Source: Sulfuritalea sp.
Lineage (GTDB): Bacteria; Pseudomonadota; Gammaproteobacteria; Burkholderiales; Rhodocyclaceae
Length of the DNA stretch: 54,867 nt
Assembly: GCA_021738385.1 (NCBI GenBank)
Contig: JAIPCF010000010.1
Coordinates: 1 to 54,867, forward strand
Direction: 5' to 3'
Notes under the pieces: generated by a model
Seen by the model: only the letters and a program-made list of their open reading frames with translations
Databases searched by the model: none
Told to the model about the DNA's origin: nothing
Translations under genes and position numbers: made by a program
Shown here: piece by piece, positions 15,066 to 41,545 of the stretch
Layout of the letters: every line of letters starts with the position of its first letter
How positions within the stretch are numbered: the first letter of the stretch is position 1

Positions 15066-15134
15066 TTAGTGCGTTCCTCAAAAGTTGATTCGATTATGGC
15101 ATGGATGGCACAGTTTTTGCGCCACCGCTATTTC

Positions 15135-15638: not shown

Positions 15639-15699
15639 GCTTAACGTAATGAAACAACTCGTTCGGAGCGACAAGCAATAGTCGAGCGAAGCGAGCTGA

Positions 15700-15731
15700 C
15701 CCCCATCCCCGCCCCAGGGCGGGGATGGGGG
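15700..15731. repeat. GC-rich perfect palindrome between pgpA and pncC
   Basis: Arms CCCCCATCCCCGCCC (15700-15714) and GGGCGGGGATGGGGG (15717-15731) are perfectly complementary with two bases between. No U-tract follows on the minus strand. It could act as a REP-like element, an mRNA-end stabiliser or a rho-assisted stop between the two co-directional genes. Confidence 0.65.
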
Positions 15732-15796
15732 TGGGGGGCCTTCAATTCGCCTTTTACGTGTTTCATCATCAGGGGTGCCGGATCACTGCATGAAAG

Positions 15797-22132: not shown

Positions 22133-22221
22133 CGGCCTATTCTACCTTCGGCGAAGGCCAGGTTTGGGTTAGCCTGCCGCATCCGGGAGGCCTGAGCCTG
22201 TCTGGAATCAGGAGCTTGGCT

Positions 22222-24015
22222 TTGAGCAAATTGTTGACGGGATTGATGGATGCTGAGCGCAAGCGCCGCGCGCTTGCAGCGACTGCTGCGGAGGCCTCGG
22301 TAAATCAAACTGATGCCGAGCGGGCCGCCGAGGCGAGCGCGTTTGCGAGAGCCGCCGGGGATGAGCGCGCGCGCGCTGCAGCTGAATCAAAGCAGGCTGC
22401 GGCTGCCGAGCAGATAGCGGCCGCACAACGCAGGCAGCAGGCCGAGCAGTTTGCTACGGAGCAAGCGTTGAGTCGCGCAGCAGCGGAATCGGCGGCAACA
22501 GAAGCGGCTGAGCAGCAAGCGCGGGCCGAACGTATGGCTGAACAAGTCCTGCGAAAACGTATCGAGGCCGAACAGCGGGCTCTGATGGAGGCGCAGCGCA
22601 AAGAGAACGCCGCCGCCGAACTGGCTAACGCCGCAGCGGCACGAGCAAAAAAGCAGGATGAGCTGAATCGTCTTGCTCGCGAACGGAGTGAATCGGAGCG
22701 TCGGGCTGCGGACCTGGCCACGGAGAAACTTCGTACCGAACAGATCGCCGAAGCGGCCGCTTTGGCTTGTCTGGCGGCAGAAAAAGAAGCCGCACGCGAA
22801 GCGCTTCGCCGCGCCCAGCGGGAGGCCGAGGCCGGGAGAGCGGAAGCTTTGCGGATCGAGGCCGAGCAGGAGGCGCAAGCGGCGCTAAAAGAGCATTCAG
22901 ACGCCGAGTCACTGGCCAGCCGCGCGGCAGCAGAGGCCCGAGCCGAGCGGTTGGCGGAAACCGAATTGCAAAAGCGCGTTGAAGCAGAGAGGCGTTCTCT
23001 TGAAAAGTCTCTGGCAAATGAAGTCGCCGCAGCTGAACGTGCCAGCGCTGTCCAGGCTCGCGTCGAACAGGAGCAGGAGCTGGCGCGACTTGCGGCGCAG
23101 CGAGCCGAGATCGACCGAAATGCAGCCGAAGCGGCCGGCCGGCAGCTGCGAGCCGAACAGGAAGCAGAAACCGCCGCTTTGGCGCGACTGGAAACTGAAA
23201 AGCGGGCAGCGCAGGAAGCCCGGAGGCGCTCTGATCAGGAAGCCGAAGCCGCTCGTGCGTCAGCGGCGCGCCAAGCGGCGGAGCAAGCTGTCAGCAAGGC
23301 GCAGGCAGAGCGTCTTGCCGCTGAAGCTGAGGCTGCGACAGCTCAGCGCCTGACCGTCGAGCGGCAGGCCGAGTCTGAGATGCGGGCAGCAGCCGAATTG
23401 GAGCGTCGCGCCCTGGCGGAAGCCCAGCGTAAGGAGCGTGCCGCCACCGAACTGGCAAATGTGGCGACCGTCCGCGCCACCAGGGAAGCAGAGCTTGCGC
23501 AACTTGCCGCGAAGCGCGCCGAGGCCGATCGGAATGCCGCCGAAGTGGCCAGCCGCCAGTTAATCGCCGAGCAAAAGGCGGAGGCAGCAGCGTTAGAAAG
23601 AATCGAAGCTGAAAAGCGGGCAGTGCTGCAAGCCCGGCAACGCACGGATCGGGAAGCTGAAGCGGCTCGCGCTGCAGCCGCGCGCCAAGCCGCAGAACAC
23701 GCCGCAATTGCCGCCAAAAACGAACGCACGGCCGTGGAAGAGGGAATTGCCACGCCAATCCCGCAACCGGTTAGTACAAAAAATGAAGAAAATAAGCGTG
23801 GGCTGAACGGAGTCAGGCCGAAGGATCTACCCTTTCGGCGCCTGCTCGCCGCAACCGCTATAGCCTTGGCCACAGGCTTGGGTGCCGGTTTCTGGCTATC
23901 GAAACCACCTACCCTGCGGCCGTGGTCGGAACAGCATGACAGCTTGAAACTGCGTCTTGACCTGACGCTGAAGAACCCGCCTGCGGATGAACAGCGAGTC
24001 ATTCCCCGGGATTGA
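22222..24015 (+). CDS. Alanine-rich coiled-coil protein with C-terminal membrane anchor
   Basis: Unrecognised ~597-residue protein. Residues ~15-520 are an almost uninterrupted Ala/Glu/Arg/Gln-rich coiled coil without proline, containing three diverged copies of a ~139-residue unit. Equivalent blocks are RRAADLATEKLRTEQIAEAA, RNAAEAAGRQLRAEQEAETA and RNAAEVASRQLIAEQKAEAA. A single transmembrane helix (LLAATAIALATGLGAGFWL, ~540-560) is followed by ~34 residues. There is no N-terminal signal, so the rod should be cytoplasmic with the tail in the periplasm. Composition recalls TolA, with the anchor at the opposite end. TTG 22222 is preferred because GGAG (22211-22214) lies seven bases before it; TTG 22216 would be too close. 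It precedes the TolC-like gene by ~250 bases. Confidence 0.75.
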   Translation: MSKLLTGLMDAERKRRALAATAAEASVNQTDAERAAEASAFARAAGDERARAAAESKQAAAAEQIAAAQRRQQAEQFATEQALSRAAAESAATEAAEQQARAERMAEQVLRKRIEAEQRALMEAQRKENAAAELANAAAARAKKQDELNRLARERSESERRAADLATEKLRTEQIAEAAALACLAAEKEAAREALRRAQREAEAGRAEALRIEAEQEAQAALKEHSDAESLASRAAAEARAERLAETELQKRVEAERRSLEKSLANEVAAAERASAVQARVEQEQELARLAAQRAEIDRNAAEAAGRQLRAEQEAETAALARLETEKRAAQEARRRSDQEAEAARASAARQAAEQAVSKAQAERLAAEAEAATAQRLTVERQAESEMRAAAELERRALAEAQRKERAATELANVATVRATREAELAQLAAKRAEADRNAAEVASRQLIAEQKAEAAALERIEAEKRAVLQARQRTDREAEAARAAAARQAAEHAAIAAKNERTAVEEGIATPIPQPVSTKNEENKRGLNGVRPKDLPFRRLLAATAIALATGLGAGFWLSKPPTLRPWSEQHDSLKLRLDLTLKNPPADEQRVIPRD

Positions 24016-24262: not shown

Positions 24263-25660
24263 ATGGGCAAATGTTTCCTTTTCTTCCGTTTTGCGTTGCT
24301 CAGCATGGCCTTGGCGCCGGGTTTCAGCATGGCGCAGGTGGCCGAAACGCTGACTGAGCTGCAAGCTCTGGCGCTGCAACGCGACCCCGACTATCGAGTG
24401 GCGGAATTCTCGCGTGAGGCACTGTTGGAGCAGTACAACCAGAATGTCGGCGCACTTATGCCGACGTTCAACTTGGAGGCGTCCACCACCGGAACCAAGA
24501 CCATGCCCAGGGGCCCGAGCGCGACCGGCGGTCAGACGAACACCTCATTCAATACCAAGCGCTGGGAACTGAGCCTGACTCAGCCGATCTTTCGCGCCGA
24601 ACTGTTCGTCAATCGCATCCAGGCCGACGTGCGCCTGCAGCAGGCTGATGCGGAACTTGCTGCGGCACGGCAGGATTTAATCGTGAGGCTCGCTGAGCGC
24701 TATTTTTCGGCACTGCGCGCAGCCGATGATCTCGGTCTGGCACAAGCCGAGGCCGAGGCGCTCAAAAAGCAGCTCGAACTGGCCAAGGATCAGCTTGAGT
24801 TCGGCCTTGTAGCGATTACCGACGTAAACGAAGCACAGGCTGCGTTTGATACGGCGCTGGCGCGTATTCTCGATGCGGAAAGTACGCTTTCGAGCGCACG
24901 AGACCAACTGGCGGCAATTTCCGGGGTGTATCCGGAGGGCTTGGCGCCACTTGGCGAAAAACTTCCATTGATAGTGCCCGCTCCTTCCGACATTGCACTC
25001 TGGTCTCAGGCGGCACTGGATCAGAACCACAAGCTGCGTGCCGCCAATCTTAATGTTGAGGCAGCGCGTCAAGAGATTCGCAAAGCTGAGGCAGGGCACT
25101 TGCCATCGCTCGATCTGGTTTTCAAGGCGAACAGCGAAGCTGCAAATGGTGGTATCGGTGGGGCCTCGGATTATGGCAACGAGAGCGTGGCGCTGCAGCT
25201 TACGATCCCTCTGTTCCGTGGGGGGCAAATCCTCTCACGCACACGCGAAACCGTGGCGCAGCATGCTCAAGCGATCGAGCGGGCCATAAAGGAGAGACGC
25301 ACCGTAGAACGGGAGGCGCGGGAAGCCTACGTCGGTGTTTCAACCAACATTATGAAGGTGCGTGCGCAGGAGCGCGCGGTGCATTCGCATGAATCAGCGG
25401 TGGAGGCTGTGAAGGAGAGCTACCAGCTACGGCATCGTACTGCGATAGATGTTTTGACCGCACAAAACAAACTCTATCTGGCAAAACGGGATCTTTCGGC
25501 GGCTCGCTATGAGTACGTACTCAATGTTCTGAGGTTGAAGCGCGCGGCGGGCAGCTTGCAGGATGCAGACTCGAACCACGTTAACGGATGGCTCGACTTG
25601 AGCAAGCGAGTGGGGTTCAGCCCCAATGGCTCAACCCGCGCACATTTGTCGGGCAGGTAA
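24263..25660 (+). CDS. TolC-family outer-membrane efflux/secretion channel
   Basis: Outer-membrane exit duct of a type I secretion or efflux system. The 465-residue protein starts MGKCFLFFRFALLSMALAPGFSMAQ (signal peptide) and has the two outer-membrane-efflux repeats: LQALALQRDPDYRVAEF with YNQNVGALMPTFNLEAS, and NHKLRAANLNVEAARQEIRKAEAGHLPSLDLV with SVALQLTIPLFRGGQILSR. The ending YQLRHRTAIDVLTAQNKLYLAKRDLSAARYEYVLNVLRLKRAAGSL is typical of TolC proteins serving type I secretion. It is convergent with the peptide/ABC/HlyD cluster, which lacks its own outer-membrane component, so it is the obvious partner. Confidence 0.93.
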   Translation: MGKCFLFFRFALLSMALAPGFSMAQVAETLTELQALALQRDPDYRVAEFSREALLEQYNQNVGALMPTFNLEASTTGTKTMPRGPSATGGQTNTSFNTKRWELSLTQPIFRAELFVNRIQADVRLQQADAELAAARQDLIVRLAERYFSALRAADDLGLAQAEAEALKKQLELAKDQLEFGLVAITDVNEAQAAFDTALARILDAESTLSSARDQLAAISGVYPEGLAPLGEKLPLIVPAPSDIALWSQAALDQNHKLRAANLNVEAARQEIRKAEAGHLPSLDLVFKANSEAANGGIGGASDYGNESVALQLTIPLFRGGQILSRTRETVAQHAQAIERAIKERRTVEREAREAYVGVSTNIMKVRAQERAVHSHESAVEAVKESYQLRHRTAIDVLTAQNKLYLAKRDLSAARYEYVLNVLRLKRAAGSLQDADSNHVNGWLDLSKRVGFSPNGSTRAHLSGR

Positions 25661-25749
25661 GCTGAAGTTGATTCCATGCGCATTTAAGAAGCGGCGACTC
25701 GATCAAGGTTTTGAGTTAGACCGGTAGTCATCCAGGGTTAAGCAGGGTT

Positions 25750-25780
25750 AAAAAAAGGGCATCCATCCGGATGCCCTTTT
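25750..25780. terminator. Bidirectional rho-independent terminator
   Basis: Perfect arms GGGCATCC (25757-25764) and GGATGCCC (25769-25776) with a 4-base loop, TTTT on the right and seven As (25750-25756) on the left. It stops both the rightward tolC transcript and the leftward peptide transcript. Confidence 0.92.
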
Positions 25781-25802
25781 GCCGCATCAAGCGCGGGGGC
25801 GA

Positions 25803-26042
25803 TCAGACGAAACGCCAGCCAACCCGTACCCGGCGGAAAGCATAGACTGGTACACGGCGACGTGCTCTGCCGCGCGGCCGCTTACCATAGCTGGGAGGGC
25901 GCCGGCGCTGTGCGCGCCGCTTCGGGCGACGACGGAAAAATCCGCCAAAAACGTTGTCCTGTCCTTCGTCATCCAGTGATTTGGCGCGCGACGGCAGGTC
26001 ACTGATTTCGATAACTGTATCTTGCAGTTTTAGCTCAGACAT
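25803..26042 (-). CDS. Double-glycine-leader Arg/Pro-rich peptide precursor 1
   Basis: A 79-residue precursor that I read as a secreted cationic peptide. The leader (1-34) starts MSELKLQDTVIEISDLPSRA, is acidic (8 D/E against 3 K/R) and ends DNVFGG, a C39-peptidase-type double-glycine site with Leu at -12 and Val at -4; -7 is Gln instead of the usual hydrophobic residue. The predicted mature part (35-79) has 45 residues: 18 Arg, 2 Lys, 5 Pro, no Asp or Glu. Blocks include FFRRRPKRRAQRRRPPSYG and RRVRVGWRFV, resembling proline/arginine-rich antimicrobial peptides. AAGGAG lies nine bases before the ATG. It is last in the cluster, beside exporters with an active C39 domain. No homologue is recognised; a nucleic-acid-binding protein is the main alternative. 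Confidence 0.72.
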   Translation of the reverse strand: MSELKLQDTVIEISDLPSRAKSLDDEGQDNVFGGFFRRRPKRRAQRRRPPSYGKRPRGRARRRVPVYAFRRVRVGWRFV

Positions 26043-26094
26043 AATTTCACTCTCCTTTCGTCATGAAAAACACTAGCCCGCAGAACGGACTCCT

Positions 26095-26157
26095 TTAAAG
26101 CAAAAAGGAAACGAGCCTCGCGGTTTCGTTTCCTTTCACTAAATACAACATAAGCAT
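26095..26157 (-). CDS. Possible 20-codon leader ORF overlapping a hairpin
   Basis: Between the two peptide genes, GGAGG precedes ATG codons at 26157 and 26151 that open a frame of 20 (or 18) residues, MLMLYLVKGNETARLVSFLL. Most of it lies across the hairpin at 26104-26136, the layout of a leader peptide in an attenuator. Evidence is only the start signal and position; it may be untranslated. Confidence 0.3.
   Translation of the reverse strand: MLMLYLVKGNETARLVSFLL
26102..26136 (-). terminator. Hairpin with U-tract between the two peptide genes
   Basis: Perfect 11-bp arms AAAGGAAACGA (26104-26114) and TCGTTTCCTTT (26126-26136) around an 11-base loop. On the minus strand the hairpin runs into TTTTTG. 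It could end part of the transcript after peptide 2, attenuate peptide 1 or protect the upstream mRNA. Confidence 0.65.
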
Positions 26158-26168
26158 CCTCCGGCCCC

Positions 26169-26450
26169 TTAAAACCTGAATGCGTGCCAGAAGGAACGGA
26201 AAATCCGGTGCCTTGCTGCAAACGCATGCTGCCAGGCGGCGCGCTTGCGCCAACGAACGAACGACGCTATCAGACCAACTACAGCAGTGCGCACGGCCAT
26301 GCGCAGGGTGCCAACACAACGCCAAACACTCCGCCACCAACTGCCCCCACCGAGCACGGCAGCCAACTCAGCGCGATTCAACGGACGCTCCCGTTTCGGA
26401 AGCGTACCGATCACGATGACATGTGCAGGATTTAGTGAAGTGGCGGTCAT
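26169..26450 (-). CDS. Double-glycine-leader Trp/Arg-rich peptide precursor 2
   Basis: A 93-residue precursor. The leader contains LNRAELAAVLGG (24-35), an exact match to the classical double-glycine consensus: Leu -12, Glu -8, Leu -7, Val -4, Gly -2, Gly -1. Cleavage after Gly35 gives a 58-residue peptide starting GSWWRSVWRC. It has about 11 Arg, 1 Lys, 3 His, 6 Trp and no acidic residues. The pattern is amphipathic, with a hydrophobic centre (VGLIASFV) and aromatic/basic end (RSFWHAFRF), as in membrane-active peptides. One Cys is present, so no internal disulfide. No good Shine-Dalgarno is visible before ATG 26450. It lies 139 bases after the peptidase-ABC gene with a possible own promoter. 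Function as a bacteriocin-like peptide is inferred. Confidence 0.75.
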   Translation of the reverse strand: MTATSLNPAHVIVIGTLPKRERPLNRAELAAVLGGGSWWRSVWRCVGTLRMAVRTAVVGLIASFVRWRKRAAWQHAFAARHRIFRSFWHAFRF

Positions 26451-26486
26451 TGGAGCAAAGTAGCCGTTCGGTTGCAGGATGGTTCA

Positions 26487-26515
26487 AGCTTAATTTAGTG
26501 CACCTGCCCGGTCAA
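26487..26515 (-). promoter_or_regulatory. Candidate sigma-70 promoter before peptide 2
   Basis: On the minus strand TTGACC (26510-26515) and TAAGCT (26487-26492) are 17 bases apart, 37 bases before the ATG. Inverted copies of an AGTGCAC motif (TTTAGTGCAC at 26494-26503 and GTGCACTAATT at 26545-26555) flank the -35 side and could be a regulator site. Confidence 0.4.
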
Positions 26516-26589
26516 GCTGAATACCAAAAATAATGAGGCAATCTGTGCACTAATTCACGGTTGCAAGAATATTTCATTCTTAAGAGCGT

Positions 26590-29500
26590 TCAATCCTGCT
26601 CAAGTTGGCGAGCGGAGAGGTGGTAATACACCCCGCGCTTGGCCATCAGATCATCGTGGGTGCCGCTTTCAACGATGATCCCACGCTCAAGCACCACGAT
26701 CAGATCCACATTTCGCACGGTCGAAAGTCGGTGAGCAATCATGATCACCGAGCGGTCTCCGTAGTGGGCAGAGATGTTTTCCATGACGTTTCGCTCGGTT
26801 TCATTGTCCAGAGCCGATGTCGCCTCGTCCAGTACCAGGATCGCCGCAGGCTGCAGGAAAGCGCGCGCGATGGCAATTCTCTGGCGCTGTCCGCCGGAAA
26901 GATTTGCGCCGCTTTCCTCCAGTTGCGCCGTATAACCCCCCGGCATTTGCACGATGAAATCGTGGGCGTTGGCGGCGATTGCCGCCTCCTGTACTTGCTC
27001 CAGCGTGGCCCCGGGATTGGCGAGGGCGATGTTGTCGCGTACGGTACCCTGATATATGGTGCTCTTTTGCGGCACCATCGCAATCTGGTGGCGTAGTGTT
27101 TCTAGCGAAGCCTCGGCGAGATCGAAACCGTCGATCAAAATTTTGCCGCTGGACGCCGGATAAAACCCGTAGAGCAGCTTTATGAGTGTTGATTTGCCAG
27201 AACCGCTGGCACCGACAAACGCCACTTTCTTGCCAGGCGGTAGTACCAGATTGACGTTTTGCACGACATTGTTCGGGTCGTCGGGGTTGTAACGGAAGGC
27301 AACATTGCGGAACTCTACGTGGCCGCGCAGCTTTGGCAGATTCAGGCGCGGCGCCTCCTTCCCCTCGGTGCCGAACTCCGATTTCTTCTCCATGATATCG
27401 TTCAACCGTTCGACAGCGACGACCACTTCCTGCAGCTCGTCCCACTTGCCCACCACTTTGTTGATTGGCTCTTGCAGACTGTTGGCAAATGCGGTGAAGG
27501 CGACCAGTTCGCCGAGGGAAATCTTGCCCATGATGACGAACGCGCCACCGAGCAAGAGCACCGCCACGTCGGATAGCGCATCGAGTGTCCCGGAGAGCAA
27601 GCCGGCAAGCTGGGCGAACTTTGCCTCTCGGAACTTCATGTTCGCCACGGCGGCAAAATTGTTCTCATATTGCCAGCGTGCGAGATGGTCGGCACCGATG
27701 GTCTTCAGTGTGCGCGCGCCCCGCAGTGATTCGATCAAGTGGCTTTCCAGGTCGGCTTCCTTGACGAAAGTCTCTCGATTGATCTGCCGGATCCTCGGCG
27801 AAATCTTGGCGATGAGCACGATGTTTAGGAGCAGGAACGACACCGCGGCGAGCGTCAGCAGCACGTTGAAGTAAAGCATCACGCTAAGGTAAACCACCAC
27901 TGAAAACAGGCTGAGAAAGGTCTCCAGTCCGTCCTCGGTGACGAAATTTGTGATTTCTTCGTTTTGTTCGAGGCGGCTGGTTATGTCGCCGGTCTTGCGT
28001 GCCTCGAAGTAGCCTATTGGCAGCGACAACAGCCGCTGATAAACAGCGCCTATGATCGCGGCATTGCACTTCATTGAAACTCGCAACACCATCTCGTTGC
28101 GCAGGAAGGTGAGAATCTGCTTCAGGACGAGAACGCTTACCATGACGACCAGCGCAGCAGTGAGCCACTGGGTGCTCGCCGGCAGGATGATGTCGTCGAT
28201 AACGAACTTCGAGAACAGTGGGGTTAGCACGGACAGCAGTTGAAGCAGGAAAGACGCGACAAATATATCGATGATCGTCTTTTTGAACGGGGTGAAGATC
28301 GGCAGGAAAGTGAGCAGCGAGGTGCGCGACTCGGGAAAGGCGTCGAACGCCGGCGTTGGCTCGAGGAAGATGGTGTACTTGGCCCAATTTTCGAGAAACT
28401 CGGCTATCGAGTAAGTGACCAGACCTTCTGCCGGATCGGCGATCAGAACCTGGTCGGCAGTCACCTGGTGAATTACTATCCAGTGATATCCCCGCCAGTT
28501 GGCGATTGCCGGCAGGCGTTTCTCTCTCAATTGTTCAATCGTACTTTCGTAGGCCGCGGCCTGAAAACCCATTTCCCTGGCGGCGCGGATTATGCTGGCC
28601 ATTGATGCGCCTTCCTGGCGCACTCTTGCGATCTCGCGGGTCGTGTTGATCGAAACTTCCTTGCCATAGAAGCGGCAAACGGTCGACAGGCAGGCCGCGC
28701 TGCAGTCCATTTCGCTGTGTTGGCGGATGGCGGGCGGTTTGGCGCTGCGTGGCCACAAACGCTTCAGCAGTTTGATGAAACCCGAGCCCTGTGCAGTGTC
28801 GGAGGATGAAGCCGGCGAATGTGGTGCAGTCAGTTCATGCGAAGATGCGCCATCCTGATCGGCAGGCGCGACGACAACTGAGTCAGGATCGGTTAGCACT
28901 GCGCTACGGCGCTCCTCAATCAGCGTGCCCAGTCGCTGTGTGAGCGCGGCATGCGCTGCAGCGACACCGCGAAAGTCCTCGCCGGGCAGTGCATAGACAG
29001 TTACTGCGGTATCGGCAGTTACGTCGGCTATTCGCTGTTCGCCGGAAAGGACTGCCATTTCGCCAACGACGTCGCGCTCCCCGAGCAAGGCAATGCGATG
29101 ACTGGGCGCTTCGCGCCGGGTTACGACCAGCTCGCCCTTGCGCACGATATACAACACATCGTCGCGCGCGCCTTGCTCGATGAGCAAATCACCCTGGCGC
29201 AATTCACGCAAGGTCACGCGGTCGGCAAGTTCAATCAACGCCTCGCGCGGCACATCGCGAAAACTCGCACAGCCGGCGAGAAAGCCTGTTACCTCGGCGG
29301 TGCGCCGTGCCTTCCCGATCCTTTCGGCCAGCGCGGTGTTCTCAACAAGCAAGCGTGCGAACGTGTCACGGGAAATGAATTGCAGCAGGGCCGGCTCGCC
29401 ACCGACAACCGCACTCTGGAGCATGGGCTCCGCGTCATCGAGCGCCTGCTGGCAGAAAAAGGCGCCCTCGCGCAAGGTATCGATGATTTGACGGTCGGCA

Positions 29501-29697
29501 CCGGAGTTGACCGTGAGGCGTATTTCTCCTGCGACCACGTGATAAAGGCCCGCAGGACGCTCGCCTTGAGCGACTACTGTCGCCGATCGCGGAAGATGAA
29601 TAGGCTCGGCGAGCTTCGCAATTGTGGCTCGCTCGGCATCAGACAGTGAAGCAAAATCGGGAAGCGCCTTTAGTCGTTCGATCAGAGTGAGTGCCAT
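26590..29697 (-). CDS. C39 peptidase-containing ABC exporter with two cNMP-binding-like domains (active peptidase)
   Basis: A 1035-residue inner-membrane exporter that should cut double-glycine leaders and push the mature peptide through HlyD/TolC. Two cyclic-nucleotide-binding-like domains occupy ~17-130 and ~144-260. The C39 peptidase (~322-445) keeps its oxyanion Gln326, Cys332 (SEMDCSAAC), His405 (GYHWIVIH) and Asp421 (IADPAEG), so it is predicted active. Six membrane helices span ~473-735. The ATPase has Walker A GASGSGKST (829-837), signature LSGGQ (933-937), Walker B ILVLDEA and His989. Ordinary ComA/LagD-type exporters lack the N-terminal cNMP domains; NHLM-type and HetC-like exporters are the closest known layouts. 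It starts 20 bases after the HlyD stop and lies just upstream of the two peptides. Confidence 0.93.
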   Translation of the reverse strand: MALTLIERLKALPDFASLSDAERATIAKLAEPIHLPRSATVVAQGERPAGLYHVVAGEIRLTVNSGADRQIIDTLREGAFFCQQALDDAEPMLQSAVVGGEPALLQFISRDTFARLLVENTALAERIGKARRTAEVTGFLAGCASFRDVPREALIELADRVTLRELRQGDLLIEQGARDDVLYIVRKGELVVTRREAPSHRIALLGERDVVGEMAVLSGEQRIADVTADTAVTVYALPGEDFRGVAAAHAALTQRLGTLIEERRSAVLTDPDSVVVAPADQDGASSHELTAPHSPASSSDTAQGSGFIKLLKRLWPRSAKPPAIRQHSEMDCSAACLSTVCRFYGKEVSINTTREIARVRQEGASMASIIRAAREMGFQAAAYESTIEQLREKRLPAIANWRGYHWIVIHQVTADQVLIADPAEGLVTYSIAEFLENWAKYTIFLEPTPAFDAFPESRTSLLTFLPIFTPFKKTIIDIFVASFLLQLLSVLTPLFSKFVIDDIILPASTQWLTAALVVMVSVLVLKQILTFLRNEMVLRVSMKCNAAIIGAVYQRLLSLPIGYFEARKTGDITSRLEQNEEITNFVTEDGLETFLSLFSVVVYLSVMLYFNVLLTLAAVSFLLLNIVLIAKISPRIRQINRETFVKEADLESHLIESLRGARTLKTIGADHLARWQYENNFAAVANMKFREAKFAQLAGLLSGTLDALSDVAVLLLGGAFVIMGKISLGELVAFTAFANSLQEPINKVVGKWDELQEVVVAVERLNDIMEKKSEFGTEGKEAPRLNLPKLRGHVEFRNVAFRYNPDDPNNVVQNVNLVLPPGKKVAFVGASGSGKSTLIKLLYGFYPASSGKILIDGFDLAEASLETLRHQIAMVPQKSTIYQGTVRDNIALANPGATLEQVQEAAIAANAHDFIVQMPGGYTAQLEESGANLSGGQRQRIAIARAFLQPAAILVLDEATSALDNETERNVMENISAHYGDRSVIMIAHRLSTVRNVDLIVVLERGIIVESGTHDDLMAKRGVYYHLSARQLEQD

Positions 29698-29716
29698 GCC
29701 TAGGTCGTCCGTGCTA

Positions 29717-31219
29717 TCAATCTTCGCCGCTCAGCTTCGCCAGCACCAGTTGCAGGATCCGCTTGCGCGCGGTAAGCAGGTCGGCATTGACCTCAAGTCC
29801 CGGCTTGAGCGCGACTTGCTCGCCACGAACCTTTATTGTCGTCCGTTCCAGCGCGACACGTACCTTGAAATGCGGCCTGTCAGGCATCGGAAATGCGCTC
29901 AGCACTTTGCCAGGGACAGTACCGTACTGCCGGTAGGGATAGGCGTCGACTTTGACGTTTACTCCTATTCCGGCCTTGACTGCCGCGACATCCTTGTTCT
30001 GGATGTACACGATCGCTATCAATCTGCCACCGGATGGGACAAAAGTACCGACGCGGGCACCTCGCTCGACCAGCTGGCCTGGGGTAGTGAACTTTAATTC
30101 GGTAAGCATTCCGTCCTGAGGGCTGCGCACCTGCAGTTCGCCAATGTGTATGCGCTGCATACTGGTCTTGCTCCGAAGCTCGGAGATTTTGGTTCTGCCT
30201 TTGAGAATTTCCTGGTCGAGTTGGGCGATCGCGCCATTCAGATTGACAAGTGCGTGATCGTAGGCGGTAGTTGCCTGCGTCAGGCTGCTCGTGAATTCGG
30301 AACGTCGGCGCGCCAGCTCGCTACGCAACTCGTTCGACTGGTGTTCAAGCCGCGCACGCTCAAGTTCAGACTGGCCAATCCGCTGGCGTTCCGCATACAG
30401 GCTTGCTTCCGACTGAATAACGCTGTCGCGCGCCTGATTTACGGCCGAGCGCGGCACCGCACGACGTTTTATCAATGTCTCCATTTGCTGTAATTCAATA
30501 CGCTTGGAAGCAAGATCCTGCTCGCGACTCTTGAGCGCCTGTTGAGTAATTTGGATAACTTCATCAAGCTTGGTGATCGAGTCTTTGTTGATGGCAATCT
30601 GGGCTTCCGCAATTTTCTTTCGCGTCACATAGTCGGTACGCAGTTCGTCTTTGGCGCGGTCGAGGGCCTGCCGGGTGCGGCGCAGTGTCTGGATCTGCTC
30701 GACGACAGGGCCAGCATCGACGAATTCACTGGCGGCAGTACTCATGATCGATTGTGGATCGGCGGCCAGGCGTTGCGCAATGCTTCTTGCACGAGTGTTT
30801 CTCCGGTCACGGTCCTCCTCGATCTGCAGTTCATTTTGCAGCGTGGATAACTCAACTCCCGACTGCGGTTGTTCCAAAGTAAGGACGACTTGCCCCTTTT
30901 TCATCAGATCACCGGGTCGAGCGTGGACTGTTTTCAAGGAGCCACCCTGATGTGCATCGAGGACGACATCCTCCGCTTCCGGAGCAAGCAACCCCTTGCC
31001 GGGAACGATGACGTGGACCTTGCCGAACCAGCCGATCAGCAGCATCACGAAGGTAACAGCACCCAGTAAATAGAGCCCACCGCGCATATACAGCGGCGGA
31101 ACACCCTCGATCACCTCGGAACGTGAGTCGGCACTTTTCAGGTTCTCCGCATGGCGGTCCAGCGTTTCGTACTGAGCGGCATCGGCTGCGGTTTCAAGCG
31201 GCTTGTTCTCTTCGGCCAT
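29717..31219 (-). CDS. HlyD-family periplasmic adaptor
   Basis: Membrane-fusion protein joining the ABC exporters to the outer-membrane channel. From MAEENKPLETAADAAQ it is 500 residues: cytoplasmic tail, one transmembrane helix (GGLYLLGAVTFVMLLIGWF, ~47-65), half-lipoyl motif (DAHQGGSLKTVHARPGDLMKKGQVVLTLE), a long coiled-coil hairpin (~120-350), second half-lipoyl (VRSPQDGMLTELKFTTPGQLVERGARVG) and beta-barrel. AGAGAACC precedes ATG 31219; an upstream in-frame start at 31234 is less well placed. It lies between the two exporter genes, as in NHLM-type cassettes. Confidence 0.93.
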   Translation of the reverse strand: MAEENKPLETAADAAQYETLDRHAENLKSADSRSEVIEGVPPLYMRGGLYLLGAVTFVMLLIGWFGKVHVIVPGKGLLAPEAEDVVLDAHQGGSLKTVHARPGDLMKKGQVVLTLEQPQSGVELSTLQNELQIEEDRDRRNTRARSIAQRLAADPQSIMSTAASEFVDAGPVVEQIQTLRRTRQALDRAKDELRTDYVTRKKIAEAQIAINKDSITKLDEVIQITQQALKSREQDLASKRIELQQMETLIKRRAVPRSAVNQARDSVIQSEASLYAERQRIGQSELERARLEHQSNELRSELARRRSEFTSSLTQATTAYDHALVNLNGAIAQLDQEILKGRTKISELRSKTSMQRIHIGELQVRSPQDGMLTELKFTTPGQLVERGARVGTFVPSGGRLIAIVYIQNKDVAAVKAGIGVNVKVDAYPYRQYGTVPGKVLSAFPMPDRPHFKVRVALERTTIKVRGEQVALKPGLEVNADLLTARKRILQLVLAKLSGED

Positions 31220-31246
31220 TGTGGTTCTCTCCAATACTGCCCGCGT

Positions 31247-34200
31247 TCAGCGCGTTCGCGTTGCAAGGTAGTAATACAGACCTTTCGCGTCCATCAATTC
31301 GTCGTGCGTGCCCTTTTCGACGATCTTTCCTGCGTCGAGTACAACGATCAAATCCGCGTTGCGCACCGTCGATAAGCGATGGGCAATTACCAGTGTCGTT
31401 CTGTCACGCATGATGCGATCCAAGTTGCGCTGGATCAGTTGCTCGGACTCGGTATCGAGAGCTGACGTCGCTTCGTCAAGGACCAGAATGCGCGGATTTC
31501 CGGCAAGCGCACGGGCGATCACCATGCGTTGCGTTTGACCCCCGCTCAGCGCACGCCCTCCCTCGCCGACCCGAGTGTCATAACGCATCGGAAATCGATC
31601 AACAAACTCATTTACGCCGGCAAGTGTCGCCGCCGAAGCGACCGCTTCAAGGGGCAGGCTCGGATTTGCCTTGGCAATGTTCTCGCGAATGGTTCCGGCG
31701 AACAGCTGTGGCGATTGTTCGACCACACCAATCTGCTGACGGAGCGATACAAGGTCGACCCTGGATATGTCCACACCATCGATGGTGACTGTTCCAGAGC
31801 TGGGCTCCAGCAATCGATTTATCATGCTGACCAGCGTCGTCTTGCCCGAACCGCTGCGGCCCACGAAGGCAACCTTTTGGCCGGGCTCAATGTTCAGGCT
31901 GATGTCTGAAAGGATGGTTCGTCCCTCGGCGCTGTATCGAAAGGAAACCTTCTCGAGATGGATCGCACCTTTGAGTAAAGGGCAAGGCAGATCACTATTG
32001 ACGGGCTCGCGCGGTGATGACAGTACATCGTTCAGGCGATTGAGTGCGACCCCCAGTTCCAAGTATTCGTCGTAGAAATTGGCTAGCGCTTCGGCAGGCT
32101 CCATGACCAACCCGAGGATGCCGGCAAAAGCAATCAGAGCCCCCGGCGTGAGCTCACCCTGCAAAACCATGTTTGCGCCGAGGCCGAGTATTGCTAGATT
32201 GCTGCCCTGCTGCAAAATGTCGGTGAATATCTCAAAATTGTTGTCGAAGCGCTCAGAGCGCATTTTCACGCTGAGCATACGATTGAAGAACCCCTGACCC
32301 TTCTGCGTGAATTCAACTTCCTGTCCGAGGGACTTGATCGTCTCAACACTGGATATCACCTCGATTACGTGCGACTCCTTGTCCGAGCTTGTCTGGAACT
32401 CCATCCGTTCGTAGGCCCGCACCCGCGGGGTCACCGCGACGATGGCAACAACCAGAATGATGAGAAACACCGTCGCCAGTAACGCCAGCTTGACGTTCAT
32501 CATGAACAGTACTGGCAGGTAGATCAAGATCGCCACCGAGTTGGTGAGCACGGAAATCGCGCCATTGGAGGTCGTTTCGAGAAACTTCTCGTTTTCCTCG
32601 AAGCGTGTGAGTAGCGCACCGGTGTCCCATCGGTTGAGCGCGCTTATGGGCAGAGCCAGAATGTGCGCAAAAAAACGCACGAACAGGGTTCCCGACAACC
32701 TGCGGATCAAGTGCAGAGATAGAAATTCCTTTATCGCTCCGCCAACCCCTCCAATCAGCGTTGCTGACAGCAGCCCGACGAGCATCAGGCCAAGCATGTT
32801 CCAGTCCCCGACCACCAATACCTTGTCGATCAGGACCTGGGTGAATAGCGGGGGTAGCAACCCCAAACCCTGCAAAATCAACATCACCACCAGAATGCGG
32901 GCCACCATCCCCCAATAGGGTTGCATCAGGGGCAGAAACTGACGATAAACACCCGCCAGCGATACGCCGGCGGCGCCGAAATCAGGAACGTAGGCTACCG
33001 TAAGTATCGTGCCGTTGAATCGCTGGGCAAACTCCTCTAGCGACACCCGGGTCAGTCCACGCCGTGGGTCGGCGAGTAGCACGCCACGCTTGTCGACGCG
33101 GTAGACAACGAGGAGTTCTCCATCCGCAGTCTGAGTTACGCCAGGCAGAACTATTTCTCGTAGCTTGCCGAATTCGATACGCAGTAATCGACTAAGGAAA
33201 CCGACAGACTCCGCCTTTCGACCGAGAGAGTGCAGATCGTCGGCGCGACCGATCTCCAATTGCCTCTCGACCAAAGAGTGGTATGCAAACGGCCTGCCTA
33301 GACGCTCGGCGATCATTACCAGGCAGGCTATGCCAGAAAGTCGTGGATCCTCGACCATTGCCAGCGGCAGTCGCCTGCTCCACCAGCCGCGCGGTCGAAT
33401 ATGGCCGATGCGGATGAAGGACTCAACGTCGGCGCGAGCCACATCCTCCTCGGTATCGGAGGAGAGGATCGCCTCTTGCTGCAGCAAGTGCCGGCTGGCC
33501 TGCTCGGCGAGCAGGTCACTGATGTTGCTCTTGTCGCCGACAACGCTCAAATAGGCATCTCGCCTCAACTTGAGGGCGACGGTCGGCTCCTGCGCTACCG
33601 CGGCGGCACTGCGCGACTGGTCGTGGAGTAGCGCCATTTCACCAAGCAGATCACCGGCGCGCTTATAGCCGAGCAGCTTGTCTCCGTGGCTTTCCTTTAC
33701 TATTTGCAGCGAGCCGTCGCGAACCAGATACATCGCGTCACCTGGATCGCCTTCGTGAAAAAGGTAAGCGCCAGGCTCAAGTGAAACGGTTTCTATGGCG
33801 TCGATTAGCTTCGCCGTCTCAGCGGTTGTCAGCCCTGCGAGCAGATTCTGGGTCTTGAGAAAATTGAACTCACGTTGACGCGTGCTTGCGTCGTCGATTC
33901 GGTGGCGCAGCTCCGGACTGGCATCTACCAAAGCGCCGAAGTCGGCGGCCGCAAGGCCGTACAAGACGACATTGCCGGCTGCACGAACCGTGGCGGAGAC
34001 CTCCTTGCCATAAAGCAGTGCCTGTTCCCCGAAGCTGTCACCTCGTTTCAGGACGGCCAGTGTGACGGGGTTTTCGCTACGCTCGTCGACGATCCGGACT
34101 TTGCCCGAGCCGACAATATAGAACGAGTCGCCGGCCTGGCCTTGACGCAGGACCGACTCGCCGAGTTTGAACGTCGCCAATTGCAGCTTGGCGACGACGC

Positions 34201-34276
34201 GATCAAGCAAGTCCTCTGGAAGCGCCCCAAACAGGGCGCTCCCAGCGAGCAGCTCACGCAACTCTGCGGTGGCCAT
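31247..34276 (-). CDS. ABC exporter with two cNMP-binding-like domains and a degenerate C39-like domain
   Basis: A 1009-residue paralogue of the other exporter with the same layout: two cNMP-binding-like domains (~10-125 and ~140-255), a C39-like domain (~303-430), six membrane helices (~455-720) and an intact ATPase (GRSGSGKTT 806-814, LSGGQ 910-914, LVLDEATSALD, His966). The peptidase residues are gone: the positions of Gln, Asp and Cys read Val308, Leu313 and Ser314 (PRLSGIACL), and no His stands at the catalytic position (ADGELLVVYRV); only Asp403 remains. As in HlyB, the domain could still bind substrate without cutting. It may form a heterodimer with the peptidase exporter or move a second substrate. 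Confidence 0.9.
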   Translation of the reverse strand: MATAELRELLAGSALFGALPEDLLDRVVAKLQLATFKLGESVLRQGQAGDSFYIVGSGKVRIVDERSENPVTLAVLKRGDSFGEQALLYGKEVSATVRAAGNVVLYGLAAADFGALVDASPELRHRIDDASTRQREFNFLKTQNLLAGLTTAETAKLIDAIETVSLEPGAYLFHEGDPGDAMYLVRDGSLQIVKESHGDKLLGYKRAGDLLGEMALLHDQSRSAAAVAQEPTVALKLRRDAYLSVVGDKSNISDLLAEQASRHLLQQEAILSSDTEEDVARADVESFIRIGHIRPRGWWSRRLPLAMVEDPRLSGIACLVMIAERLGRPFAYHSLVERQLEIGRADDLHSLGRKAESVGFLSRLLRIEFGKLREIVLPGVTQTADGELLVVYRVDKRGVLLADPRRGLTRVSLEEFAQRFNGTILTVAYVPDFGAAGVSLAGVYRQFLPLMQPYWGMVARILVVMLILQGLGLLPPLFTQVLIDKVLVVGDWNMLGLMLVGLLSATLIGGVGGAIKEFLSLHLIRRLSGTLFVRFFAHILALPISALNRWDTGALLTRFEENEKFLETTSNGAISVLTNSVAILIYLPVLFMMNVKLALLATVFLIILVVAIVAVTPRVRAYERMEFQTSSDKESHVIEVISSVETIKSLGQEVEFTQKGQGFFNRMLSVKMRSERFDNNFEIFTDILQQGSNLAILGLGANMVLQGELTPGALIAFAGILGLVMEPAEALANFYDEYLELGVALNRLNDVLSSPREPVNSDLPCPLLKGAIHLEKVSFRYSAEGRTILSDISLNIEPGQKVAFVGRSGSGKTTLVSMINRLLEPSSGTVTIDGVDISRVDLVSLRQQIGVVEQSPQLFAGTIRENIAKANPSLPLEAVASAATLAGVNEFVDRFPMRYDTRVGEGGRALSGGQTQRMVIARALAGNPRILVLDEATSALDTESEQLIQRNLDRIMRDRTTLVIAHRLSTVRNADLIVVLDAGKIVEKGTHDELMDAKGLYYYLATRTR

Positions 34277-34336
34277 ACGGTAGATCAGTCCACTCAGGCG
34301 CGGGGGAAAAAGGGCCGCGCACCCGAACGGTGAACC

Positions 34337-35125
34337 TTATTCGTCGCCTTCCTTGTCTTCCGCGAATGGATTGACTTTAAGGCCCAGGATCAGCTGCTCT
34401 ACCTCGGCCTTCTCCGCAAGTTCGTGAATTGATTCCTCGAAGAGCGCTTCGCGCAATCCGAATTCCTCGTCCTCGAGTGTCGGCTTGTGGAGCTTGCCTA
34501 TCATGTATATGGCAAAGGCATCATCGGTCTTGAATGGTCCAATGATGTCGCCTTCCTTGCCCGAAAAAGCAGCAGCTTCCACCTCTCCGGCCAGCTCTCC
34601 ACGACTTGTCGCACCGATGAATCCGCCCTGACGCCCGGTTTCCGGATCGATCGAGTTGTCTTTGGCAAGCTGCAAAAAGCTCTCGCCTTCGCTGGCCTGG
34701 GCCTTCAGTTCCTTTGCGGTATCCTCGGAGTCGCAGAAAATTCCATATAGTTCGACCGTCTCGCCCTTGGTCTGGATTTCGGCAAACCGCTCCCGAATCT
34801 GTGCATCGGTAATTCCGGCGCGCATTTTGTTGCGCAGTGCCGTGATTTCGCAAAAGCCCTGCATCGCCGCCAGATCCAGGCCGCGCTCATTCATCCACTG
34901 ATTCATGGCCTCTGTTGACTCGAGGCCCATTGCGTAGCGCATCTCGTCGACTACGACCTGCATATCTTCCTTGCTGGCCTTCATTCCGGCTTTCGCGGCG
35001 CTCTGCAGAACCACCACGTTTTTCAACGTTTCCTGGGCAAAACCCTGATCATCACCGATCAGTTGCCACTGCAGTGCGGTCCGAACGTCTACGGTTTCAC
35101 CATTTACCTTGAGAAATGCAGTCAT
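34337..35125 (-). CDS. Cytoplasmic parvulin-type (PpiC) peptidyl-prolyl isomerase
   Basis: First gene of the peptide-export cluster. The 262-residue protein starts MTAFLKVNGETVDVRTALQWQ after a strong AAAGGAG. A helical SurA-N-like part (~1-120) precedes a parvulin domain (~125-225) with ELYGIFCDSEDTAKEL, GGFIGATSRGELAGEVEAAAF and GDIIGPFKTDDAFAIYMIGKL. There is no signal peptide or membrane helix, so unlike SurA/PrsA it should stay in the cytoplasm. Its place ahead of two exporter genes suggests a chaperone for peptide precursors; precursor 1 is proline-rich. Similar PpiC proteins accompany peptide-maturation clusters elsewhere. Substrate is inferred. Confidence 0.87.
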   Translation of the reverse strand: MTAFLKVNGETVDVRTALQWQLIGDDQGFAQETLKNVVVLQSAAKAGMKASKEDMQVVVDEMRYAMGLESTEAMNQWMNERGLDLAAMQGFCEITALRNKMRAGITDAQIRERFAEIQTKGETVELYGIFCDSEDTAKELKAQASEGESFLQLAKDNSIDPETGRQGGFIGATSRGELAGEVEAAAFSGKEGDIIGPFKTDDAFAIYMIGKLHKPTLEDEEFGLREALFEESIHELAEKAEVEQLILGLKVNPFAEDKEGDE

Positions 35126-35383
35126 GAAGTTCTCCTTTAAAGAAACAAAAAAACGCAAACCATCGCGTAGTCTATGAGTGAAAAAAATCCTGCTGGTTCG
35201 TATGTCACCAAAAGAACGCTTCTCAGTTCAATTATGCAGCAACTATTTCACCCCTGTTCACTCTTGTCGAATTTTGAGTGTTAGATCATGATTGCTGATC
35301 GTCCGCGACCATGGTAGTTTCCCGTGCTGATTTGGTTGTCTTTGTTCACGGCTTCATTGCATGAAAAATAGGTGAGAAAAATT
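35126..35383. promoter_or_regulatory. Divergent control region between ppiC-like gene and tpsB
   Basis: 258 non-coding bases, visibly more AT-rich than the neighbouring genes. It must contain the leftward promoter of the export operon and the rightward promoter of the two-partner secretion genes. A and T runs are prominent near 35145-35200, but no promoter match is clear enough to call. Confidence 0.45.
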
Positions 35384-37084
35384 ATGACAAAAGCGATTGC
35401 CGGATTGCTGGCATCCGCTGTACTGTTGGCCGTACTATCGCTGGATGAGGCGAACGCGCAGGATGCGAGCTTCGACGTTTCGCGGTTCCAGGTCGAAGGC
35501 AACTCCATCCTTTCAGCACAGCGGGTCGAGCAGCTTGTCGCGCCCTTTGTCGGCAGTGGCAAGGTCTATGGCGACATCCAGAGGGCGCTGGAAGCATTGG
35601 AAAACGAATATCGCCGCCTCGGGTTTGGCACGGTACAGGTTTATGTACCGGAGCAGGAGCTCACTACCGGCGTCGTAAAGCTGCAAATCACCGAAGGCGT
35701 CGTCGGAAAAGTCACAGTCACCGGCAACAAGTATTTCGACGAAGCCAATGTGCGGGCCAGCTTGCCGGATATCAAAGAGGGCAGCGCACCCAACATGCGC
35801 AAGCTTTCCGAAAATGTTCAGTTGAGCAATGAAAACCCGGCCAAGCAGGTCGAAGTCACTCTGGGGGTGAGCGAAGACGAGGGCAAGGTTGATATCAAGG
35901 TCGAAGTCACGGAGGAAAACCCCAGGCGTTTCTACGTCACGCTGGATAACACCGGTACCAAGGCCAGCGGCAAGCATCGGCTGGGCGTTTCCTACCAGAA
36001 TGCTAATGTGGGTAACCGCGATCAGGTGCTGACGTTGGCTTACACGACCGCAATTGATCCTCCCGGAGGCATGAAAATTCTCGGCAATCGTGCTTTGCCG
36101 TGGCAAGACGCAAATGGTGTGAAAGTCGACATTTTCAGTATCGGCTACCGCCTGCCCTTGTATTCGCTTGGCGATAGCATCGACTTAATCTACGGAAACT
36201 CCAGCACCGACTCGCCGACCAATTCGCCGAACCTCGGCGGGGGTCTTGCGATTAACGGCAAAGGTGAGGTATTCGGACTGCGCTACAACCATATTTTTGC
36301 GCGTGCTGGCGAGTACAGTTCCAAGCTGGTGATGGGAGTCGACTACAAGTACACCAACAGCCGTTGCGCCATTGCCGGCAATCCGACGGCTTTCGGTACA
36401 GCCGGTTGTACACCCCATACGTTTCGTCCTGTTTCAGCCACCTATAGCGGGCAGTGGCAAAAACCGGGTAAAGCCATTGATTTCAACATCGGGGTGATTC
36501 ATCACCTGTTTCCGATGGGCAGCCGCTTTACTTTTTCCCCGGCCGCCCCTGCCGCAGGGGGTTACGATCGATACTCAGCTGCGTCAGGCTATCGCACCAA
36601 GGATGAGTTCACGGCACTGCGCTTTGGCGGCAGCTATGCCACAGCATTGGGCAGCGACTGGCTGTTCAGGGCGGCGGCGAGCGGTCAGTATGCGAACAAT
36701 GCATTGCCTGCTGGCGAGCGGCTCGGGTTGGCGGGTTCCAATGCTGTGCGCGGTTTTCTGGAGCGTGCGGTCGCGTCCGATCGAGGCTACTTCGCAAATT
36801 TTGAAATCTATTCACCGGATATCGCGGCGCGTCTCGGTCTCAAGGGCAATCTCAAATGGCTGGCCTTCTACGATACAGCGCGCGGCTCCAACTTGAATCC
36901 GTCCGTCAACCAGATGGTAAATATTGCGTCGCTGGGTGTCGGTGTGCGCTACAACATCAAAAAGGATGTCAGCGCTCGCTTTGATGTTGCCCGGGTAATG
37001 GATGGCCTCTGGCCAAATGGGGCGCCAAACATTGCGCTTGAAGGCAATATTCGCGGCCACTTTGCCCTTGCGTTTGGTTTCTGA
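35384..37084 (+). CDS. Two-partner secretion outer-membrane transporter (TpsB/FhaC/ShlB family)
   Basis: Outer-membrane channel that exports the adjacent TpsA. The 566-residue protein starts MTKAIAGLLASAVLLAVLS with a signal peptide ending near NAQ. Two POTRA domains follow (FDVSRFQVEGNSIL...; GVVGKVTVTGNKYFDEANVR...), then a 16-strand barrel (~185-566) with the loop-6 VRGF motif (SNAVRGFLERAVASDRGYF) and a terminal phenylalanine (ALAFGF). ATG 35384 is preferred over GTG 35372 because GGTGAG at 35371 lies seven bases before the ATG. Confidence 0.93.
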   Translation: MTKAIAGLLASAVLLAVLSLDEANAQDASFDVSRFQVEGNSILSAQRVEQLVAPFVGSGKVYGDIQRALEALENEYRRLGFGTVQVYVPEQELTTGVVKLQITEGVVGKVTVTGNKYFDEANVRASLPDIKEGSAPNMRKLSENVQLSNENPAKQVEVTLGVSEDEGKVDIKVEVTEENPRRFYVTLDNTGTKASGKHRLGVSYQNANVGNRDQVLTLAYTTAIDPPGGMKILGNRALPWQDANGVKVDIFSIGYRLPLYSLGDSIDLIYGNSSTDSPTNSPNLGGGLAINGKGEVFGLRYNHIFARAGEYSSKLVMGVDYKYTNSRCAIAGNPTAFGTAGCTPHTFRPVSATYSGQWQKPGKAIDFNIGVIHHLFPMGSRFTFSPAAPAAGGYDRYSAASGYRTKDEFTALRFGGSYATALGSDWLFRAAASGQYANNALPAGERLGLAGSNAVRGFLERAVASDRGYFANFEIYSPDIAARLGLKGNLKWLAFYDTARGSNLNPSVNQMVNIASLGVGVRYNIKKDVSARFDVARVMDGLWPNGAPNIALEGNIRGHFALAFGF

Positions 37085-37194
37085 GCCAGGACTGGAGTTG
37101 CATTGGGAGTGTGACTTACTCCCTGGAAGCCGGGTCGGTTCTGGACTATATGTAATAGATGCGTGGGAGGCTGTCCCGCTATTGGAGTTTGCAG

Positions 37195-41541: not shown

Positions 41542-41545
41542 GCCC

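Follow-up and report, generated by a model that had tools for sequence, protein, structure and literature searches.

Introduction

Among described peptide export systems, those closest to the locus considered here come from cyanobacteria, whose bacteriocin groups I and II combine a long exporter of the form CAP_ED-C39-ABC, an HlyD adaptor, a rotamase named SurA and precursors with double-glycine (GG) leaders, as set out in the accessible sections of Wang, Fewer and Sivonen 2011 (PMC3140520). The same scheme is repeated in the accessible portion of a paper on the Subsection V cyanobacteria (PMC4558948). In the former account the HetP-type precursors are opposite in charge to the NHLP and N11P precursors, which are mostly negative, and, on our reading of its scheme, groups IV and V are the ones with additional ABC exporters. 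The present work concerns a locus on the minus strand of a 54,867-nucleotide stretch of DNA from Sulfuritalea sp. (Rhodocyclaceae; assembly GCA_021738385.1, contig JAIPCF010000010.1), the whole of which is referred to as the window. The locus codes for two long exporters, one with an active and the other with a dead C39 peptidase domain, together with an HlyD adaptor, a PpiC-type rotamase and two short GG precursors, P1 and P2. We consider it likely that this is a dedicated, self-contained and probably acquired type I cassette that would chaperone, cleave and export two cationic peptides.

Parallels with individual parts of the cassette can also be drawn further afield. In Synechococcus elongatus, PteB and the EbfG proteins are required for biofilm formation and the C39 Cys is needed (PMC4997328, accessible part); the likeness lies in a C39 exporter with a required Cys and several small exported GG proteins, whereas no dead-C39 partner is mentioned in that part of the source, and the two systems are likened by description rather than by kinship. 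MirC of the rosaritide system (TIGR04500) adjoins a C39 exporter of the peptidase-containing type (PCAT), is needed for graspetide formation and has been proposed to be a chaperone, according to the portion of PMC13097080 at hand. The PpiC of the window likewise has TIGR04500 as its best match and lies beside a PCAT-type exporter; unlike the MirC case, it scores 61.4 against 180 for that model, and the open reading frames (ORFs) of the window that were scanned include no graspetide synthetase. Finally, the C39-like domain of HlyB has no protease function, having lost the Cys and kept the His, and tethers the uncleaved toxin (PMC8277102, accessible part).

The dead and active exporters of the cassette

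In the order of transcription the cassette (25803-35125) runs PpiC, dead-C39 exporter, HlyD, active-C39 exporter, P2 and P1, with a TolC-type channel convergent to it (Table 1). Profile matches and the ORF list place these genes where the original prediction, an earlier reading of the same DNA, had put them. Its proposal of a complete type I route is borne out: ATPase, adaptor and channel are all present, one exporter is of the GG-cutting kind, and the row of genes also contains PpiC and the two GG precursors.

Both exporters carry two cyclic-nucleotide (cNMP)-binding stretches (PF00027), and the second cNMP domain of each keeps the GExA...R pattern that is typical of nucleotide binding. The active exporter matches PF00027 twice, followed by PF03412, PF00664 and PF00005; its best match of solved structure is the ABC-type bacteriocin transporter 8vp3 (PCAT1; 2e-133), and it has the catalytic Cys, His and Asp next to a transmembrane domain (TMD) and a nucleotide-binding domain (NBD) that mark the PCATs. 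Its partner lacks this catalytic set, with Ser in place of Cys, Glu in place of His and Val in place of Gln, the Asp being kept. Dead exporters of this kind are found at two further loci, in a metagenome-assembled genome (MAG) of Magnetovibrio (L032) and on a plasmid of Leptolyngbya boryana (L030), with 51% and 38.6% identity, respectively, to that of the window. A check of the alignment columns shows that the His and the Gln are gone from all three dead domains, the Cys from two (it is kept in Magnetovibrio) and the Asp from both relatives, while all four residues are present in the other 14 aligned exporters (4 from the active clade, 10 single-type ones).

In a tree of 27 exporter proteins, the dead exporters constitute one clade (support 100/100) with the branching (Leptolyngbya,(window,Magnetovibrio)), and the active exporters another (100/99) with the branching (Leptolyngbya,(L029,(window,Magnetovibrio))), where L029 is a locus from another order of the same phylum as the window. 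Since the branching order of the two clades agrees for their three common members, the exporter pair has been inherited or transferred as a unit. The deeper placement of these clades, including that of the NHLM proteins, is without firm support, and the branches are long. As for the neighbourhoods, the Magnetovibrio contig starts at the dead exporter and continues with HlyD and the active exporter, and Leptolyngbya has the order PpiC-dead-HlyD-active of the window with one MauE/DoxX gene added between PpiC and the dead exporter and with a short HlyD of 182 amino acids (aa). The active exporters of Leptolyngbya (725 aa) and L029 (733 aa) are without the cNMP part. The Walker B Glu is kept in each of the 7 proteins that make up the two clades. 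As side observations, the Magnetovibrio active exporter (L032, 4713-7787) has one in-frame stop, from sequencing error or decay, and the Leptolyngbya MauE/DoxX-type gene (L030, 11127-11963) shares its cassette with a Cys-rich core (9723-9968), a combination that would be consistent with disulphide bonds being formed in the cargo.

The dead domain, modelled on its own (pLDDT 86), is predicted to retain the C39 fold, its best matches being C39 domains: the leader-bound 6mpz (TM-score 0.78), which we take to be LahT, and the C39-like domain of HlyB, 3zua (0.72). With the whole N-terminal part as the model, all 50 matches listed are tandem-cNMP proteins, mostly of the protein kinase A or G type. 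The likeness to HlyB lies in a C39 fold without protease function, as predicted for the window; the difference is that the His and Gln are lost here in every case and the Cys in two of three, each time next to a cutting partner.

How the cassette compares with described groups

The parallel with the cyanobacterial groups I and II is close in content: the window has exporters of the form CAP_ED-C39-TMD-NBD, an HlyD (PF13437), a rotamase (PF00639) and short GG precursors. It extends to the leader, in that KIxDLxYLEx10GG, the leader of HetP (one precursor class, skewed to group II), resembles the IxIxDLP...GG leaders found here, with differences in both letters and spacing. The cores also differ; the relatives that the window has by its flanks are proteobacterial; and no second, dead-C39 exporter is described for groups I and II in the accessible sections of PMC3140520. 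An unqualified assignment to these single-exporter groups was therefore rejected, the window having a dead and an active exporter.

A parallel might also be struck with the NHLM cassettes (NHLP family export ABC1/ABC2/HlyD), which combine HlyD with two ABC proteins, one of them without peptidase activity, and the original prediction had invoked such a cassette. This assignment fails, as all three models stay far below their cut-offs on the window: 590.9 and 462.5 for TIGR03796 (853.3), 406.5 and 379.6 for TIGR03797 (709.4) and 75.4 for TIGR03794 (156.2). Moreover, ABC1 and ABC2 join neither exporter clade firmly (ABC1 stands beside the active clade with 42/89).

The claim of novelty therefore has to be divided. 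The combination of PpiC, HlyD, cNMP-C39 exporter and GG precursors was known already from the cyanobacterial groups (PMC3140520, accessible sections) and is found in Burkholderia-type genomes as well, and what is new is the paired-exporter form; in the accessible open-licence literature no description was found of a dead/active exporter pair, or of the leader box in proteobacteria.

The precursors P1 and P2

The leaders of the two precursors read IEISDLPSRA...GG in P1 and VIVIGTLPKRE...GG in P2. A motif pattern written after inspection of the two finds only P1 and P2 in the window, with 0.10-0.15 matches expected per window. Because this pattern was post hoc, an independent test was built without window sequences, as a hidden Markov model (HMM) of 12 leaders from related cassettes (11 of the Burkholderia type and that of Leptolyngbya). 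Over the 509 window ORFs it ranks P2 first (E 0.031) and P1 second (E 0.58), values that are individually weak, and a model of the 11 Burkholderia-type leaders alone ranks the two ORFs first and seventh.

The 12-leader model also picks a 77-aa ORF at L029 (E 0.03), which lies behind, and convergent to, an exporter that has 47% identity to the window's active exporter; the core of this ORF is short and not cationic. Its leader is identical to that of P1 at 14 of 25 positions (56%; E 6e-7 in a single comparison). With this precursor as the query, P1 is the best of the 509 window ORFs (score 68, the next reaching 39, with P2 third at 38), and none of 2000 shuffles attains the score of P1. The Leptolyngbya precursor (DVQDLPARA...IYGG, with a Cys-rich core) has the DLPxRA box and its distance to the GG in common with P1, and their score is reached by 1 of 2000 shuffles. 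On these sequence comparisons the leaders of P1 and P2 resemble those of the related cassettes beyond chance.

The leader model was further run over 19 loci, the window and 18 related ones, of which 12 match at E<=0.1; 8 of these supplied leaders to the model and match by construction. Among the 11 loci outside the training set 4 match: the window (by P2 only), L168, L169 and L029. The 65 control loci, which amount to 1.09 Mb, give 2 matches at E<=0.1 and none at E<=0.01; these controls come from a genome scan that gave 80 loci, 11 cyanobacterial ones being excluded from the controls. Homologous cassettes thus do occur with GG-leader ORFs, whose consistent absence would have spoken against the original prediction. 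At one further locus (L126, 9100-11960, minus strand), five ORFs with the cyanobacterial leader lie in a row flanked by two cNMP-C39 exporters, one of the five reading GA instead of GG.

Of the two precursors, P1 is the stronger gene, having an AAAGGAG ribosome site, a terminator and a leader with a homologue; the case for P2 depends on its leader. The hairpin between them is the probable terminator of the P2 transcript. A pattern scanner reported neither of the two structures given in Table 1, and listed another hairpin at 26075-26091. Two promoter-like sites are found 5' of PpiC (0.6 expected).

A number of observations count against the proposed reading of the cassette and of P1 and P2. In orientation, the L029 precursor is convergent to its exporter while P1 and P2 follow theirs on the same strand. 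With the Leptolyngbya precursor as the query, P1 is only third of the 509 ORFs; P2 against that precursor is equalled by 78 of 2000 shuffles and P1 against P2 by 111 of 2000. Seven of the 19 loci have no leader match (L123, L124, L127, L166, L167, L170 and the Magnetovibrio L032, the contigs of L124 and L032 being shorter than 8 kb). P2 has no clear ribosome site, and no sigma-70-type promoter is found before P1 or P2 in 25600-26700 (0.6 expected from shuffles). As for composition, the original prediction had stressed acid-free, Arg-rich cores, and this part stood: neither core has any Asp or Glu, the net charges are about +20 for P1 and +12 for P2, the P2 core has 11 Arg and 6 Trp, and the cores, predicted to begin at F35 of P1 and G36 of P2, have average masses of about 5768 and 7047 Da when unmodified. 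Acid-free 45-mers with at least 20% Arg+Lys make up 3 of 610 45-mers taken from real genes, but of 90 shadow ORFs lying within known window genes 19 contain one, so that cationic composition was rejected as proof of gene status. Codon use was rejected likewise: at 0.076 (P1) and -0.026 (P2) bits per codon, the two are not separated from the shadow ORFs (-0.014, standard deviation 0.126; real 80-codon windows 0.131, standard deviation 0.10).

No homologue of either core was found, the genome searches having used P1 and not P2. Pfam up to E 10 has no match for P1, P2 or the Arg-rich Magnetovibrio tail described below, models of Nif11 or nitrile-hydratase-like precursors (NCBIfam/Pfam up to E 10) match neither P1 nor P2, and a plasmid search yields one match to P2 (E 4, without annotation) and none to P1. 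Across 31 genomes of the genus, P1 has weak matches in 10 of the 30 others (best E 0.0011), and the leader model matches at none of the 9 loci read among these 10. Conservation in close relatives, the absence of which would have told against the original prediction, is hence lacking as far as P1 goes, with no ortholog in the 30 other genomes searched; these are genomes without demonstrated exporters, and the finding bears on the prediction only in part.

PpiC, TolC and the distribution of the cassette

The start of PpiC at the ATG at 35125 is preceded by an AAAGGAG ribosome site, and its relatives align from there or close by; the listed TTG start at 35158 is therefore probably too far upstream. 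By eye it has no signal peptide and should thus be cytoplasmic. TIGR04500 is its best NCBIfam match, as it is for all three relatives tested, with the window score below the cut-off. The leader of P2 weakly matches the graspetide-target model TIGR04497 (E 0.096, far below cut-off), as does that of one relative (E 0.0072). Since no ATP-grasp enzyme (graspetide synthetase) was matched among the main ORFs scanned (22216-43298), we read the likeness to TIGR04497 and TIGR04500 as a common leader and chaperone toolkit rather than as a sign of modification.

TolC-type matches at E<=1e-60 are present in 27 of the 31 genus genomes, the host included, and every other listed genus match has at most 39% identity to the TolC of the window, which by its sequence is probably not the ordinary TolC of the genus. 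On account of this difference the cassette and its TolC look acquired; the exporters were searched in 3 other genus genomes.

The paired form is sparsely distributed. At E 1e-150 the dead exporter is matched in 3 of 150 genomes of the host family, one of them the host and the other two at 33% identity. For the active exporter the counts are 3 among 349 genomes from the order, the host being one of the 3, and 4 among 398 from the phylum. In the class of Magnetovibrio 3 of 289 genomes have a match, two at 34-35% with loci (L123, L124) of one exporter and HlyD, and among 48 genomes from the order of L029 only its own has one. The dead exporter has no match at E<=1e-165 in 386 cyanobacterial genomes, a search without a positive control from which nothing follows. 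High identity over the full length of the query is seen at just the first of the 80 loci from the genome scan. The Burkholderia-type relatives have a simple form, HlyD-PpiC-one cNMP-C39 exporter with one to several GG precursors, whose leader type is TIxDLxxxxxLDxxAMxxVRGG. Beside one such single-exporter cassette, that of L013, lies an 826-aa ORF (13593-16073, minus strand) with, by eye, an FHA-like N-terminus.

Proposed route and function

From the parts, the catalytic residues kept or lost, the leader homology and the joint inheritance of the exporter pair, all of them features of the sequence, we infer a route for the peptides. P1 and P2 would be made with a leader of beta-strand, DLP, helix and GG, and the cytoplasmic PpiC would keep them export-competent. 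The leader would dock on the C39 domains; the active exporter would cut after the GG, and the dead C39-like domain of its partner would do no more than dock or tether. Both ATPases, HlyD and the adjacent TolC would then move the core across both membranes, and binding of a nucleotide to the cNMP domains might act as the gate; the two exporters would be either a heterodimer or two homodimers. Once outside, the strongly cationic cores would be active against anionic targets, of which the envelopes of rival bacteria are the most likely. Antimicrobial action is plausible in this light and ranks above the other single roles considered, its main rival being a role in biofilm formation or signalling.

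The cargo of the relatives gives this function little help. The net charge of 11 relatives' cores ranges from -4 to +8, with 10 between -4 and +3 and a single Arg-rich one (+8, L013). GG-leader cationic cores as a trait of the family, as originally predicted, are thus not supported, and antimicrobial action is not transferable from the relatives, as 10 of the 11 cores are not strongly cationic. By eye, several cores of the Burkholderia-type precursors (at L012, L013, L027, L028, L168 and L169) have Asn/Gln-rich stretches and a 'GAPWVxGWI' start in common, as though they belonged to a single core family or to two. Further, the helical amphipathicity of the P1 and P2 cores is no better than that of shuffles (966 and 1052 of 3000), for which reason an amphipathic helix was rejected as proof of antimicrobial action. 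No modification enzyme was recognised nearby, and, as in the original prediction, no immunity gene was recognised in the ORF list over 24263-35372, which would miss immunity proteins of unknown type.

The nearest kin provides a lead in the other direction. The Magnetovibrio contig continues for 189 bases past its active exporter, and on the opposite strand an ORF spotted by eye enters from the contig end, behind a strong terminator (z -7.1). Its C-terminal end is what the contig holds, the N-terminus lying beyond, and its last 35 residues include 12 Arg and 1 Lys and no acids. It corresponds to the L029 precursor in being convergent and in its place, some 80 bases past the exporter, and open segments with such an Arg-rich, acid-free end number 10 of 3378 at similar G+C and 664 of 25590 over all loci. 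The window and Magnetovibrio may hence both export Arg-rich peptides.

A more specific version of the proposed route, which we advance tentatively and at well short of even odds, would see in the pair a distinct subtype in which the peptidase and pseudo-peptidase half-transporters are one cyclic-nucleotide-gated machine. In it, the pseudo-C39 would hold the ultra-basic peptide by its leader, PpiC would keep it open and the active C39 would cut. The unit would have spread between Cyanobacteria and Proteobacteria with its leader kept and its cargo swapped: Arg-rich in the window and probably in Magnetovibrio, Cys-rich in Leptolyngbya and short and neutral in L029.

The same machine might instead export peptides for matrix, adhesion or signalling, much as EbfG1-4 pass through PteB in Synechococcus elongatus, a system needed for biofilm and dependent on the C39 Cys (PMC4997328, accessible part). 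A two-partner adhesin system adjoins the cassette, no immunity gene is seen, and many cores of the relatives have a net charge near zero and look, by eye, rich in Asn and Gln, all of which would suit such a role. The cores of P1 and P2 are nonetheless extremely basic and without acids, a make-up typical of membrane- or nucleic-acid-active peptides. Moreover, PteB is likened by description only, and overall we regard this role as rather unlikely.

It is about equally doubtful that the exporters act as separate homodimers, the active one for P1 and P2 and the dead-C39 one for a larger, uncleaved cargo encoded elsewhere. Heterodimeric exporters commonly have a degenerate ATP site. Neither NBD of the window shows a sign of one: both keep their catalytic residues, with Walker B and the H-loop intact in both and Walker A in the partner as well, which would favour homodimers. 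So would the precedent of HlyB-type C39-like domains, which bind uncleaved cargo (PMC8277102, whose accessible part also touches on degenerate sites). Yet there is a single HlyD for both exporters, the pair has been inherited together, and the ORFs scanned next to the cassette include none recognised as a large type I substrate.

That P1 and P2 are chance ORFs, with the true substrates elsewhere in the genome, would agree with the Arg-rich shadow ORFs, the missing ribosome site of P2, the lack of core homologues and a leader scan that covered only the window of the host's own genome, and is nevertheless very improbable given the leader homology, the ribosome site of P1, the terminators and the place directly behind the exporter. 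Taken together, the earlier interpretation is partly supported, with the export cassette upheld.

Features of the cassette and its surroundings

The features are collected in Table 1; the longest ORF of HlyD has a TTG start at 31234. Directly divergent from the cassette, at 35372-42268 on the plus strand, lies a two-partner secretion (TPS) region with a TpsB with POTRA domains and a 1460-aa TpsA-type adhesin with a TPS domain, after which comes a FecR-domain ORF. Just upstream of TolC (22216-24015, plus strand), a 599-aa ORF rich in Ala, Glu and Arg has no match in NCBIfam (E 0.001) or Pfam (E 0.1); it contains an internal 212-nt duplication (75%), and inspection by eye suggests a single membrane span close to the C-terminus.

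Table 1. Features of the export cassette in the Sulfuritalea window
Feature	Position	Strand	Description
TolC-type outer membrane channel	24263..25660	+	convergent with the cassette; TIGR01844 290 bits (cut-off 225)
Intrinsic terminator 3' of P1	25749..25780	-	fold -19.7 kcal/mol, z -3.7; stem then T run
P1 precursor, 79 aa	25803..26042	-	leader ...IEISDLPSRAKSLDDEGQDNVFGG; 45-aa core, 18 Arg, acid-free
Hairpin and T run between P2 and P1	26094..26140	-	fold -16.8 kcal/mol, z -3.5
P2 precursor, 93 aa	26169..26450	-	leader ...VIVIGTLPKRERPLNRAELAAVLGG; 58-aa core, Arg/Trp-rich, acid-free
Active exporter	26590..29697	-	two cNMP stretches, C39 peptidase (Gln, Cys, His, Asp present), TMD, NBD
HlyD-type periplasmic adaptor	29717..31219	-	PF13437; TIGR01843 147.5 bits (cut-off 208.65, not reached)
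Partner exporter	31247..34276	-	two cNMP stretches, C39-like domain without catalytic Cys/His/Gln, TMD, NBD
PpiC-type isomerase/chaperone, TIGR04500-like	34337..35125	-	PF00639 8.9e-14; TIGR04500 61.4 bits (cut-off 180, not reached)

Implications

The locus adds a conserved paired-exporter form to the cyanobacterial type of peptide export and places it in the Proteobacteria, and its leader motif, IxIxDLPxRA...GG, offers a means to find more precursors. It also raises the question of why a C39 fold without its His should be retained beside one that cuts. As for the cargo, the P1 core, with 45 residues of which 40% are arginine and none acidic, would provide a new scaffold of natural origin, provided that it is secreted in this form.

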